Positions 2,909-8,653 of a stretch of DNA of 64,000 nucleotides are shown here, one piece after another. This stretch comes from Desulfosudis oleivorans (GTDB lineage Bacteria; Desulfobacterota; Desulfobacteria; Desulfobacterales; SURF-7), in NCBI GenBank assembly GCA_020723325.1, contig DYJD01000010.1, positions 62,001 to 126,000 on the forward strand, given 5' to 3'. A program made the translations under genes and the position numbers. Every line of letters starts with the position of its first letter. The stretch's first letter is position 1. Below the pieces are notes generated by a model. It ran no database searches, had not been told where the DNA came from, and saw only the letters and a list, made by a program, of their open reading frames with translations.

Positions 2909-3958
2909 ATGCTGTCTCAAGATAAAGCCGATCAGCCGATTGTGGGCGGACGGTTGCGCCGTCATTTTATTCTGTTGGCCTTGGCTTGGACTATTGCCGT
3001 GGGTCTCTCCTTGTGGTGGAGCATCAGCCGGCAACAACTGGAACTGGAGGAAATGGCGCGTCTCAGTGCCCGGGTGGCCTTTGAAAAGGATGTGATTTAT
3101 CGACGCTGGAACTCTGAAAACGGCGGGGTATATGCCGTGGTCTCCCAACAGATTCAGCCCAATCCCTATCTTGATCCGGAAGAGCGCGACATCGTAACCC
3201 CTGATGGCAAGCACTTGACCCGCATAAACGCCGCATATATGACCCGCATCATCCATGAGATGGCCGAAGGGCAATATGGGCTTAAGAGCCATATCACCAG
3301 CCTGGACCCCATTCGTCCGCAAAACGCCCCTGACCCCTGGGAGAAAAACGCCCTGGTTCATTTTGAAAAGGGCGGCCGGGAATACAGCGAGATTCAAGTC
3401 ATGGAAGGCAAAGAATACATGCGCTTGATGCGGCCGTTGATCACCGAGAAGAGTTGCTTTCAATGTCATTCGGAAAAAAGATATCAGGAAGGTTCCATCC
3501 GCGGCGGCATCAGCATTGCCATTCCGCTGGAGCTTTTGCAGACCTTAAAAAAATCGACCTACTATGGTCTCATGGGCCTGCATGCTCTGGTGTGGGGCTT
3601 GGGACTGGCCGGCATCGGTACAGTGGGCCGCCGGTTGAAGCAAGAGCTGGCGTATCGCAAACAAATTGAGACTGAACGTATTCAACGGGAACGCTTGGAA
3701 GGAGTGCTGGAAATGGCCGGAGCGGTTTCCCATGAATTGAATCAGCCCCTGCAGGCCATTCTCGGATATGCGGAGATCGTATTAATGCACAAGGAACTAG
3801 CAGATCCCCTCAGGCTTAAGCTTGAAAAAATTGTTGAAAAAATCGAGGAACTGGGGGCCATGAGCCAAAAAATCATGAAAATCACCCGCTATGAAACCAA
3901 ACCATACCCAGGCAAACGCCACGTGATCGATATTGAAAAGGCATCTACAAAGGAATGA
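2909..3958 (+). CDS. DUF3365 haem-c sensor with HisKA domain but no ATPase domain
   Basis: The 349-residue protein has a membrane segment at residues 18-40, a periplasmic DUF3365 (Tll0287-like) sensor domain with one haem-c motif CFQCH (183-187), a second membrane segment at about 219-240, a short coiled coil, and a HisKA dimerisation domain with H-box VSHELNQPLQAILGY (His275). It stops about 75 residues after the H-box, at IEKASTKE, and no HATPase_c domain follows in any frame. It therefore cannot phosphorylate itself by the usual route. It may be a substrate of another kinase, or may heterodimerise with one. The domain end is clean, with no sign of a frameshift. It probably senses redox state or a small ligand such as NO through the haem. 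Confidence 0.8.
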   Translation: MLSQDKADQPIVGGRLRRHFILLALAWTIAVGLSLWWSISRQQLELEEMARLSARVAFEKDVIYRRWNSENGGVYAVVSQQIQPNPYLDPEERDIVTPDGKHLTRINAAYMTRIIHEMAEGQYGLKSHITSLDPIRPQNAPDPWEKNALVHFEKGGREYSEIQVMEGKEYMRLMRPLITEKSCFQCHSEKRYQEGSIRGGISIAIPLELLQTLKKSTYYGLMGLHALVWGLGLAGIGTVGRRLKQELAYRKQIETERIQRERLEGVLEMAGAVSHELNQPLQAILGYAEIVLMHKELADPLRLKLEKIVEKIEELGAMSQKIMKITRYETKPYPGKRHVIDIEKASTKE

Positions 3959-4143: not shown

Positions 4144-5517
4144 ATGCGTTTGAAGGGGTGCATTATTCATAAAATTATGGTCTTGATTGTATTGAATATC
4201 TTGGGTATTGGTCCGGTATGGGCGGAGACAACTGCTATACCCACTGAGGATGCTGGGGCCGGTGCTGCAGTTGAAAAGCGCTTGACCAAGGCCCTAACAT
4301 ACTATTATCAGGAAAATTTTCGTGAGGCACTGCCGCTGTTTCAAGGGCTCTCCGAGGAAATAGACGACCTGGATCTTTATTTTTGGACCGCCACTTGTGC
4401 TGCCCATGAAAAAGAATATGATCTGGCCGTGCGTCATTTCCGAAAAATGCTGGCGAAAAATCCGGAACTGCATCGGGTACGTCTGGACCTGGCAGATGTA
4501 TTGATCCAATCAGGTGATGTGGACGCCGCCCGCTTGGAACTTGAAACGGTTAAAAAAACATCGCCGCCGGCAACGGTTCTGGAAAAAATCGAGAACCGCC
4601 TGAAGTTGTTGGACCAACCTCCCGAGCGTTTCATGGTGGCAGCCTTGTTTACCACCGGGCTGCAATGGGACGACAACATCAGCAGCGGTCCGGGTTCCAT
4701 TGAGATTGACGATGCCATAACCACCATCACCATCGACAAGAACAGTCGTAAAAAGAGCGGCAAAAGCCGGCTCACCGGATTTACATTAAATACCTGCTAT
4801 GATCCAGGGCGTCCCAAGGAATTCATGTGGAACAATGCAATCTATTTCTATGACAACCACCACCTGGATGATTATCCTGCTTCTGAATTCAACTACCGGA
4901 CGGTGGATCTCATTACCGGACCTTGGTGGATGACCGGCGGGAGTTTAATCAAATTCCCCGTGGGCTATAATGACAAACGCTATGGCAATGAACGCCTATC
5001 AAACAGCCTGCATGTGGATCCGAGCGTGGAATATTTTCTTTCACCGCGTTTCAGCCTGACCGGCGCCTATACTTTTATCAACGAAAAATTTGCGCCCAAG
5101 CTTTATCATGGTAGTGATCATCAACACCATCGCTTCGCATTCGGACCGACTTATTACATAGACAAGCAGATGCACTTGGCAGCAGGATATCTGAATTTTG
5201 AAAAGCACCATGCTGATTCGGATTATCTGACCTATGATTCCATTGGTCTGACCTTGTCGTATGCCATCACTTTCCCGACCGGCACGGAAGCCAAGATCCT
5301 GGGCAACTGGGCCCACAGGCGCTATGCCGAAGAACCGCCCCTTTATACGGAGATCCGCAAAGACCAACGCAGCCTGCTCACCCTCGCCCTCAACCAGCGC
5401 TTTCTGAAATACGGTTTTGCTTCCCTGGAATTGGGTTCCATCGAAAACCGGTCCAATGCGGAGCTTTTCCAATATCGAAAAAACTTTTTGGCCGTTAACC
5501 TTGGAATGATCTATTGA
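4144..5517 (+). CDS. Slam-like outer-membrane protein: TPR domain plus beta-barrel (DUF560 type)
   Basis: The 457-residue protein has a signal peptide ending near GPVWA-ET. Residues about 40-165 form TPR repeats (ALTYYYQENFREALPLF, FWTATCAAHEKEYDLAVRHF, RVRLDLADVLIQSGDVDAAR). About 280 residues of alternating polar and aromatic strands follow, ending in LAVNLGMIY, as in an outer-membrane beta-barrel. This is the plan of the surface lipoprotein assembly modifier (Slam) family, which moves substrates carrying a TbpB-like C-terminal barrel to the cell surface. The next gene, overlapping or nearly so, encodes such a barrel, which supports the call. The start has an AAGGAGAGAACA leader. A general TPR/OM barrel protein unrelated to Slam is the alternative. 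Confidence 0.68.
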   Translation: MRLKGCIIHKIMVLIVLNILGIGPVWAETTAIPTEDAGAGAAVEKRLTKALTYYYQENFREALPLFQGLSEEIDDLDLYFWTATCAAHEKEYDLAVRHFRKMLAKNPELHRVRLDLADVLIQSGDVDAARLELETVKKTSPPATVLEKIENRLKLLDQPPERFMVAALFTTGLQWDDNISSGPGSIEIDDAITTITIDKNSRKKSGKSRLTGFTLNTCYDPGRPKEFMWNNAIYFYDNHHLDDYPASEFNYRTVDLITGPWWMTGGSLIKFPVGYNDKRYGNERLSNSLHVDPSVEYFLSPRFSLTGAYTFINEKFAPKLYHGSDHQHHRFAFGPTYYIDKQMHLAAGYLNFEKHHADSDYLTYDSIGLTLSYAITFPTGTEAKILGNWAHRRYAEEPPLYTEIRKDQRSLLTLALNQRFLKYGFASLELGSIENRSNAELFQYRKNFLAVNLGMIY

Positions 5518-5561
5518 TCTGCTGCAACCCAGGGAAATACGGCTTACTGGAGGGTAAGAAA

Positions 5562-7829
5562 ATGAAAACCAAAATCCAACAACAAAAAAGGCAACCCTCG
5601 AAAATAATGGTTCATGGCAGGATATTTTTTTGGGGCCTCGCCATCTTTTTGTCCACTGGACTTTTTATTGAAAGAGCAGTTGCGGATGTGGAAAAAGAAC
5701 CCGGTCCGGGCAAGTTGAGCCTGGTTGAATATCTGCAGAAAGCCAGCTTGGCAGATCCTGCTGATTACGCCCTGTCCTTCTATCTCGGCCAGTTGTATCT
5801 GCAGCAAGGAGAGACAGACCTGGCCATTGCCGCCTGGGAAAATTTTTTGAGCAAGGCGCCTGCCGAGAGCAGTAAAACCATTGCTGTAAAGGAACGGCTC
5901 ACGGTGTTGAAAATCGCTTCAGCCGAAGCATTTGCCAGGGATGCTGTTCGCCGCAAAACCACCGGCCCCATGTTCAAAACCCCTGAAAACAGCGTGGCGG
6001 TGGTGGATTTCATCAACAACGGCGGCCAAGCTTATACCCCCTTTGTCAAGGGCCTGACTGCCATGATCATGACGGATTTATCCAAGGCGCCGCAGTTAAA
6101 GGTGGTGGAGCGCGAGAAGATTCAAGCCCTCATGCGGGAAATGCAACTTGCACGCTTGGGGGTCGTTGATCCCAAAACCAGTGTGGACATGGGCCGAATG
6201 TTGATGGCCGGCAAGATTACATCCGGCAGCATGAACATGAGTGAAGCAACGGATCTGGCTATCCAAGCCATGGTCAGCGATACCGAGCACGCTAAAACCA
6301 TTGGCAATGTAACTTCAAAAGGAGATCCAAAACGTTTTTTTGAACTTGAAAAGGAGATAGTGTTGGGATTGTTGAAGGTGCTCGGCATTGCGGAGGAAAA
6401 ACTCGATCCCAATGTGCGGGCGTTGATCCGCAAGGAACATACAAAAGCAATCGATGCCTTGATATCTTACGGCAACGGTTTGCAGTATCTTGAAGAAAAG
6501 AATTTCGGCCCGGCCAGGGCGGCTTTTATTAAAGCCCTGGAAATCGATCCGAATTTCGACCTGGCCCGTGAGGCGTTAGAATCCACACCGGCGGTACTGG
6601 CCGTGGGCCAGGAACTTGGATATGACAGATGGTTTCTGACAGGACCGGTTGCTACGGCGGATCTGCGAGCCCGATCCACTGCCGGAACAGCTCCGGCGGA
6701 CAGTCCAGCAGCCGTTGATTCATCTTCAGATGTTCTGTCGGATAAGAATAGAGCCACGCCTATGGTCAATTCGGTGCAACATGCTGCGGAAGTCAAACGA
6801 TTGTCCCACATCCAAGATCTGGGTCAAATACCGATGGATCTGAATGCAATATCGCCTCAACCAACACCCCAGCCCCAACCCGGCGCTAATCCACAACCCG
6901 GGCCGCAACCCAGTCCGCAGCCGGCGCCGCAGCCGACACCGCAACCTGTGCCGCAACCCACACCGCAGCCGGCACCTCAGGCGACACATCCAACATCCAA
7001 AATGGGCTTTATAGTGGCTGCTGTGGATCAAATAACAACTCCGCCCTCACCACCGGCACCACCGACCGGGCCGACAGGACCGCCCCCTGCCCCTGTCCCT
7101 GCCCCTACACCCGTGACCTCTTTATCAGGTGTTTATCAGACCTTATCCATTCAGGATCTCAACCAGAATGTATTTTGTAACGGCACCAATTCAGATCAAT
7201 TGACCCTCAACGGCGGAAATAGTCAAGTGATTGGTTATCTGCCTCAATCAGGTTCCGTGACCTCAAGTTCTTTGCCATATAACATCACCTTTACATCCAT
7301 AGGTTATAACAGCTACTTGGAATGGGGCTATTGGCTGGGAAATAGTTCAGTGCCCATGACCAATGGCACCAATACAGATTATATTATTTTTTCTCGAAGC
7401 TATTTTGTACAAGGTGAGCCGACAACTAACCTTCAAATGAACAACCTGAGTACAAATAATATCACCGGGTCATATCAAGGCAGCGCCCATGCAACATTAT
7501 GGAATAATGCCGGCGGTATCAATATGAACGGAAGCTACAGCGCCGATGTCGCTTTTCAGAACGGCCGGATCAGCAATTTCAATCTTTCCGCAAGTGACCC
7601 CAGCGGGCATACCGTTGCCATATCTAATGCGGAAGGCAATTTTGCTGGTAGCAGCGCCGTTTTTTCGATCAATGCGAATTCCGGAACTTGGACCATAGAT
7701 ACTGGAAATACCATAACTAGGAATTGCCGCGGTGCGGTTTACGGTCCCAATGCAGAGCACATGGGCGGGATCTTCTCCATGACCACAGCATCCCAAACCG
7801 CAAGTGGAGCATTTGCCGGAACGCGTTGA
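5562..7829 (+). CDS. CsgG-like / proline-rich / TbpB-like barrel fusion, putative Slam substrate
   Basis: I start this protein at ATG 5562 (755 residues) because CTGGAGGG precedes it; an earlier in-frame ATG at 5514 has no ribosome site. A signal peptide ends near AVA-DV. A TPR-like region (about 40-110) comes next, then a CsgG/TolB-like domain (about 140-285, SVAVVDFINNGG and VVEREKIQALMREMQ) and another TPR-like helical stretch. Proline-rich PQP/PQPT repeats follow at about 433-475, with a second Pro stretch at 491-518. The last 235 residues are beta-rich and end GPNAEHMGGIFSMTT and GAFAGTR. That ending looks like the C-terminal barrel of TbpB-type Slam substrates. I infer it is exported by the preceding gene product. 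The fusion with a CsgG-like domain is unusual. There is no lipobox. Confidence 0.65.
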   Translation: MKTKIQQQKRQPSKIMVHGRIFFWGLAIFLSTGLFIERAVADVEKEPGPGKLSLVEYLQKASLADPADYALSFYLGQLYLQQGETDLAIAAWENFLSKAPAESSKTIAVKERLTVLKIASAEAFARDAVRRKTTGPMFKTPENSVAVVDFINNGGQAYTPFVKGLTAMIMTDLSKAPQLKVVEREKIQALMREMQLARLGVVDPKTSVDMGRMLMAGKITSGSMNMSEATDLAIQAMVSDTEHAKTIGNVTSKGDPKRFFELEKEIVLGLLKVLGIAEEKLDPNVRALIRKEHTKAIDALISYGNGLQYLEEKNFGPARAAFIKALEIDPNFDLAREALESTPAVLAVGQELGYDRWFLTGPVATADLRARSTAGTAPADSPAAVDSSSDVLSDKNRATPMVNSVQHAAEVKRLSHIQDLGQIPMDLNAISPQPTPQPQPGANPQPGPQPSPQPAPQPTPQPVPQPTPQPAPQATHPTSKMGFIVAAVDQITTPPSPPAPPTGPTGPPPAPVPAPTPVTSLSGVYQTLSIQDLNQNVFCNGTNSDQLTLNGGNSQVIGYLPQSGSVTSSSLPYNITFTSIGYNSYLEWGYWLGNSSVPMTNGTNTDYIIFSRSYFVQGEPTTNLQMNNLSTNNITGSYQGSAHATLWNNAGGINMNGSYSADVAFQNGRISNFNLSASDPSGHTVAISNAEGNFAGSSAVFSINANSGTWTIDTGNTITRNCRGAVYGPNAEHMGGIFSMTTASQTASGAFAGTR

Positions 7830-7930
7830 GTAGCAAGGGATATGGACAAGTTCAAAGCGATTTGTGAAAAAGGCCTTTGTTCGGGAACAAGATGGATCTG
7901 CGTTCGTAGGGTAGTAAAGGATCAGAATTC

Positions 7931-8653
7931 ATGAGCCAGAAACGAAATTGGATTGAATGTGTTGCGTTGATCTGTCTGTTGGCGGTGGTGGGATGTGCCG
8001 AGACCCGCCGGCAGGGAGCGGAAGCATCCAGTGCAGTGAAGGAAATAGACGGCAAGCCTAAAACCCTGGCCATCCTGCCCTTTGAGAACAATGCCGTAAC
8101 CGATGCGGAGCGCTACGAACCCTTGAGCAAGGGCTTGGCCGCCATGTTGATTACCGATCTCAATAAGAGCGGCAGCTCCCTGAAATTGATCGAACGTACC
8201 AAAATCGATGCCCTGTTAAAGGAGATCGCCCTGGGTCAGACCGGTAATATCGATCCATCCACAGCCGTTCAAGTGGGCCGGCTCCTCGGCGCCCAGAGCA
8301 TTGCCTTTGGTGCTTTCATGGTCCTTGGTTCCGAGGTGCGCATCGATGTGCGTATCGTCAAGGTAGAAACCGGCGAACTGATCGTTTCCGAAGCGATCCT
8401 GGGCAGCAGCAGCGCCTTTATCGAATTGGAACGTAATTTGGCAGGGAAAATAGCGGATTCATTGCGCGTGGCCTTTCATCCGGAAACAGCCGCTTCCACA
8501 GGTAATATCGAGGCGGCATTATTTTTCTCAAAGGGTCTGGCAGCCTTGGACAAGGGAGATCGGGCCGCTGCCACCGCCTTATTCCAAAAATGTGTTGCCC
8601 TTGATCCGGCTTATCAGAAACAAGTAGACAAGGCATGGGAGGGGCAAAGCTGA
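7931..8653 (+). CDS. CsgG-like lipoprotein
   Basis: This 240-residue protein has a lipoprotein signal peptide with lipobox LAVVGCAE (Cys24). It then has a CsgG/TolB-like domain (KTLAILPFENNAV, SLKLIERTKIDALLKEIA, AQSIAFGAFMVLGSEVRIDVR) and a short C-terminal TPR-like pair of helices (AALFFSKGLAALDKGDRAAATALF). The CsgG-like part matches the region about 140-285 of the preceding fusion protein, including the order FVxGLxAMxxTDL/LIERxKIxALL and TAVQVGRLLGA, so the two genes are diverged relatives. CsgG itself is the curli export pore, but many relatives are only periplasmic or outer-membrane lipoproteins of unknown role. It likely belongs to the same operon as the Slam-like gene. Confidence 0.75.
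   Translation: MSQKRNWIECVALICLLAVVGCAETRRQGAEASSAVKEIDGKPKTLAILPFENNAVTDAERYEPLSKGLAAMLITDLNKSGSSLKLIERTKIDALLKEIALGQTGNIDPSTAVQVGRLLGAQSIAFGAFMVLGSEVRIDVRIVKVETGELIVSEAILGSSSAFIELERNLAGKIADSLRVAFHPETAASTGNIEAALFFSKGLAALDKGDRAAATALFQKCVALDPAYQKQVDKAWEGQS

Follow-up and report, generated by a model that had tools for sequence, protein, structure and literature searches.

A Slam-linked fusion of a TPR-CsgG head to a TbpB-type barrel is a predicted type XI secretion cargo in Desulfosudis oleivorans

Three consecutive plus-strand genes at positions 4144–8653 of the window (the 64,000-nucleotide stretch analysed here, from a genome of 7.2 Mb in 113 contigs) raise the question of whether a protein with TPR and CsgG-like domains and a TbpB-like tail is cargo of the Slam-like protein encoded directly upstream of it. 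An earlier note had proposed that it is, and that the locus may be a new surface-display system. We favour a narrower explanation, to which as a whole we give a probability of about 0.7: the locus comprises a type XI secretion (Slam) pair of genes and a lipoprotein partner. Most probably the adjacent Slam carries the fusion, which is not lipidated; this export is predicted. Table 1 lists the features of the locus.

Table 1. Features of the Slam/fusion/lipoprotein locus (positions in the window).
Feature	Position	Strand	Basis
Slam / T11SS outer-membrane protein, 457 aa	4144..5517	+	PF24575 + PF04575; signal peptide, likely cut between VWA and E
Slam periplasmic TPR domain, residues 42-157	4267..4614	+	TPR_Slam 42-130; model helices 40-157
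Slam 14-stranded outer-membrane barrel, residues 163-456	4630..5511	+	Strand list of the model; OmpG among top Foldseek matches
Shine-Dalgarno GGAGGG of the fusion gene	5549..5554	+	Sequence
Predicted T11SS cargo, TPR-CsgG-TPR / Pro-rich linker / TbpB-type barrel, 755 aa	5562..7829	+	Pfam; same architecture in relatives
Sec signal peptide, residues 1-41, cut between AVA and D, no lipobox	5562..5684	+	Sequence, judged by eye
Head, first TPR region	5727..5870	+	TPR_2/TPR_19 matches
Head, CsgG-like domain	5976..6230	+	PF03783, 32.2 bits; N-terminal half only, positions 6-102 of 210
Head, second TPR	6468..6557	+	TPR_1/TPR_2 matches
Pro-rich PQP linker	6855..7115	+	35% Pro, residues 431-530
C-terminal handle + barrel, predicted Slam targeting domain	7113..7826	+	Ends YGPNAEHMGGIF...GAFAGTR; PF01298, profile, AlphaFold2, Foldseek
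CsgG-TPR lipoprotein, 240 aa, lipobox VVGC	7931..8653	+	PF03783, 47.7 bits; TPR

The first gene matches both Pfam families of Slam proteins above their cut-offs, TPR_Slam (46.1 bits, cut-off 35.2) and SlipAM/DUF560 (24.4 bits, cut-off 22). The 7.2-Mb genome has just one other SlipAM match, and none of 14 control genomes has any. Within its own clade, TPR_Slam matches all 19 members and SlipAM 18 of them. An AlphaFold2 model built from 19 homologues (mean pLDDT 87) shows seven helices and then 14 strands, the broken strands 267–280 and 283–300 each being counted once. The TPR-plus-barrel plan that the earlier note had recognised is thus borne out by both the family matches and the model. We conclude by homology and predicted fold that this gene encodes a Slam/T11SS outer-membrane protein, for which cargo transport is a prediction.

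The tail of the second gene product had been likened to the barrel of TbpB, and here Pfam, PDB profile search and fold agree. This C-terminal beta domain of 235 residues scores modestly with TbpB_B_D (PF01298): 25.6 bits in the context of the whole protein, just below the cut-off of 26, and 26.3 bits, just above it, when the 238-residue tail is searched alone. In a scan of the genome with the same family the fusion, at 27.1 bits, was the sole match. Profile and fold tests were clear. A profile of 21 homologous barrel domains found TbpB in the PDB at 3.8e-7, the first 25 distinct PDB sequences all being TbpB, LbpB or NHBA, and a profile from only the four CsgG-headed proteins found TbpB at 8.7e-8. 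The AlphaFold2 model of the tail is confident in its C-terminal beta domain (pLDDT above 90 across most of model residues 92–238), and the 50 best Foldseek matches listed for it are all NHBA, TbpB, fHbp, LbpB or hemophilin. Judged by profile and modelled fold, the tail is a Slam-cargo barrel.

We place the start of the fusion at the ATG at 5562 rather than at 5514, given the GGAGGG upstream of it, which leaves 44 bp between the Slam stop codon at 5517 and the fusion. The N-terminal half is as first described, with TPR, CsgG and TPR matches in Pfam (the CsgG score lying well over its cut-off of 20.8) and a proline-rich joint of PQP repeats. The likeness to TbpB does not extend to the anchor. 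The first cysteine of the fusion is residue 539, so the protein has no lipid anchor and cannot be a lipoprotein; we therefore reject a surface lipoprotein of the TbpB class, a reading that also sits badly with the cleavable, lipobox-free signal peptide. For the same reason the fusion is classed with soluble (signal peptidase I) cargo and not with the Slam-dependent surface lipoproteins. Since it lacks a lipid anchor, surface display is not implied.

The Slam and fusion pair recurs in other genomes. The full architecture (TPR-CsgG-TPR head, Pro-rich linker and barrel) with a Slam gene directly upstream was found in three, all of the same order as the window's genome: L061/L100 (Desulfobacterales MAG8), L060/L101 (Desulfobacterales MAG) and L068/L120 (a MAG labelled Desulfonema limicola). 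Of 49 barrel genes at loci selected independently of Slam, 39 lie no more than 3.5 kb from a Slam, and 37 of these no more than 600 bp from it; six of the remaining ten lie near contig ends. In a separate sample of 395 Desulfobacterota genomes the barrel occurs in 16 and SlipAM in 44. In 11 of those 16 the barrel and a SlipAM match share a contig and lie ~3 kb or less apart. Genome G534 has the barrel and no SlipAM match. SlipAM alone misses Slams that are found by the clade model (e.g. the one in L091, genome G095), so that the SlipAM counts from the 395 genomes are lower bounds.

The barrel is joined to heads of several kinds: FecR, CsgG-TPR, CHAP and VWA. FecR is the head on most barrels of the order and phylum, often beside a CHASE2-adenylate cyclase gene (23 of 37 FecR-barrel genes); one CsgG-barrel gene, L068/L120, also adjoins a CHASE2-cyclase gene. 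The claim that the fusion is a Slam substrate is therefore strongly supported by association, through phylum-wide linkage and head swaps, while translocation itself is what we infer.

Several individual loci illustrate this variety. A Slam / FecR-barrel / CHASE2-adenylate cyclase module recurs across the phylum (L085 3241–8816, L094, L092, L137–L144, L177, L181–L190), which may point to a possible link of type XI export with cAMP signalling. FecR-headed cargo can carry tandem Slam-type barrels, six in a 2074-aa protein (L088 1686–7910) and three in one of 1183 aa (L105 7267–10818). Barrel-tailed proteins with a CHAP (amidase/peptidase-type) head (L180 783–2462) and a VWA head (L146 152–3454) each lie beside a Slam gene. 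The other SlipAM gene of the window's genome (L031 6297–14666, contig C90) is a Slam-like gene without barrel cargo; its neighbours encode a FecR protein that lacks the barrel and a beta-helix protein of 1918 aa.

The third gene encodes, as had been noted, a lipoprotein with a related CsgG-like domain, matched at positions 13–104 of the 210-position model. Barrel-less CsgG-TPR proteins are common in the order, and a CsgG lipoprotein of this kind neighbours 10 of 31 of their genes. A Slam neighbour was found for all four CsgG-TPR heads with a barrel versus two of the 31 without (Fisher p = 3e-4, a guide only, the sequences compared being related). In those two cases (L062 4585–9559, genome G033; L064 1953–4626, genome G024) Slams of the same clade adjoin barrel-less CsgG-TPR proteins, and no barrel match was found anywhere in G033, which is 97% complete. 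The model of the earlier note does not predict such pairs. A link between Slam and CsgG-TPR can thus exist without the barrel tag, which counts against the export model; either the tag was lost while the Slam remained, or the Slam also handles the head.

We also asked how often this fusion has arisen. A single clade of the four CsgG-headed fusions is rejected by the AU test in the head tree (p = 3e-53), the Slam tree (p = 0.0016) and the barrel tree (p = 0.014), and we accordingly discard a single origin. In each of the three trees L068 sits among members of its own family, a placement that is supported for barrel and Slam and weaker for the head. Its Slam and barrel are placed with those of a FecR/CHASE2 module, and its head with CsgG-TPR proteins of local origin that lack the barrel. 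The window, together with L060 and L061, makes up a second set in the trees of heads and of Slams, which the barrel tree leaves unresolved. The fusion was therefore assembled on at least two occasions out of local components: the export tag is conserved and the heads on it are exchanged.

Because of the published Slam mechanism and the anatomy of the locus, we propose that the fusion is exported by means of its barrel. Slam is an outer-membrane translocon aided by the holdase Skp (PMC9090332), and its cargo is united by an eight-stranded C-terminal barrel (PMC5449769, PMC12282271). Slam can also release soluble cargo (PMC8406197); where cargo is cut by signal peptidase I and has a single barrel, release is the precedent. 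Here, Sec would export the fusion, the signal peptide would be cut without lipidation, and the protein would be kept unfolded in the periplasm. Its barrel may then dock to the neighbouring Slam, whose 14-stranded barrel would pass the fusion, head included, across the outer membrane. The barrel would thus serve as the export tag and the TPR-CsgG head as the passenger, the latter probably recruited from an envelope CsgG-TPR family that often works with a small CsgG lipoprotein, such as the one that the third gene still encodes here. Outside the cell our best guess for the head is a putative role as adaptor or scaffold with the CsgG lipoprotein as its partner. The head might be set free, or be retained on the cell surface through this lipoprotein or through Slam.

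Two alternatives concern the identity of single components. The first gene could encode a porin or an exopolysaccharide secretin of the BcsC/PgaA type, unrelated in function to the second. BcsC, which like PgaA combines TPR and barrel, is the top Foldseek match of the model, followed by porins such as the 14-stranded OmpG, with no Slam structure among the matches listed, and DUF2860 matches the protein as well as SlipAM. However, Slam/DUF560 proteins have 14 strands and PgaA 16 (PMC5449769, PMC8406197); the strand number of the model, the presence of TPR_Slam throughout the clade and the recurrent linkage to TbpB-type barrels make a secretin very improbable, and on strand count and TPR_Slam we reject it. 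The CsgG matches in both the second and the third gene might instead suggest a curli-type pore and a curli-like secretion system. In each protein only about half of the CsgG model is matched, the pore-forming half being unmatched, and on this ground we reject the pore. The same domain type sits in many TPR proteins elsewhere, the sequence matches include no CsgG structure, and no curli-subunit matches were found among the neighbouring genes tested with Pfam, so that a curli system is extremely improbable.

A third alternative concerns where the head ends up. FecR and CsgG-type domains mostly occur in the periplasm, which makes them odd as exported heads. The barrel might dock to or plug Slam from the periplasm, or cross the outer membrane by itself, with the TPR-CsgG or FecR head left behind as a periplasmic adaptor or sensor. 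A FecR head would then signal to the adenylate cyclase encoded next to it, through the CHASE2 domain of that enzyme. The heads being of periplasmic type, the CHASE2-cyclase genes adjoining most FecR-barrel genes and one CsgG-barrel gene, the occurrence of Slam with barrel-less CsgG-TPR and FecR proteins (the latter in the window's own genome, L031) and the missing lipid anchor all suit this arrangement. Against it, known T11SS cargo crosses in one piece, the CHAP and VWA heads joined to the same barrel fit an exported protein, and no CHASE2 cyclase was seen in the first 16 kb of the window, the part examined. Given the barrel-less pairs, the periplasmic-type domains and the CHASE2 neighbours, we regard a periplasmic sensor or plug as unlikely and yet deserving of some weight. 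Taken further, and more doubtful still, the Desulfobacterota Slam barrel could have been turned into a trans-envelope signalling device, with a periplasmic FecR or CsgG-TPR head reporting to envelope partners such as a CHASE2 adenylate cyclase or the CsgG lipoprotein. If so, outer-membrane protein export or surface contact would be coupled to cAMP signalling through a barrel seated in, or passed by, Slam.

Our preferred reading, export of the fusion by Slam, sets the locus beside known type XI systems. Like Slam1/Slam2, NilB and HrpB (T11SS, DUF560/SlipAM), it combines a TPR N-terminal domain and a 14-stranded barrel with an adjacent gene for a TbpB-type barrel. Unlike them, its Slam belongs to a divergent Desulfobacterota clade, beside which CsgG-TPR or FecR proteins and CHASE2 cyclases are encoded in place of TonB receptors or metal uptake. 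The fusion shares with the cargo proteins TbpB, LbpB, fHbp and hemophilin, and with NHBA, the C-terminal eight-stranded barrel and an alignment end of the form YGPxAExxGG...GxFxGxR, but carries a TPR-CsgG-TPR head and PQP linker in place of the usual binding domains, and no lipobox. Variable heads, Pro-rich repeats before a conserved barrel and several barrels in tandem are also features of the T11SS cargo described in PMC12282271, although that cargo comes from T11SS clusters 1 and 3, and the words CsgG, TPR and Desulfo- are absent from the main text of that paper. The head of the fusion and all of the third gene resemble gene pairs found in this order that encode a CsgG-TPR protein and a CsgG lipoprotein; these differ in having no barrel and, in 29 of 31 CsgG-TPR cases, no Slam.

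A literature search that covered few subscription journals found no description of CsgG-TPR or FecR heads on T11SS cargo, and nothing relevant on FecR or CHASE2 with cyclase, FecR with Slam, or CsgG with Slam or TPR. The machinery is known T11SS and the tag is known too; what is new is the passenger architecture with its convergent fusion, and the idea of a new surface-display system is accordingly not supported, all the more as a lipid anchor is missing from the cargo. All T11SS secretors verified by experiment so far belong to cluster 1, which is animal-associated, and their cargo consists of adhesins and of proteins that bind metal or haem (PMC12282271). Here an environmental phylum joins one barrel tag to swapped heads (FecR, CsgG-TPR, CHAP, VWA), which makes the range of Slam cargo a directly testable question. 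It also hints that type XI export is linked to a cyclase, a connection that was not found in the literature searched.

Two further genes of the window lie upstream of the locus. The gene at 192–1610 strongly matches CbpB, a peptide-modifying radical SAM enzyme (TIGR04163, 668 bits). The gene at 2909–3958 combines a Tll0287-like sensor with HisKA, no HATPase domain being found in it, and resembles a truncated histidine kinase.
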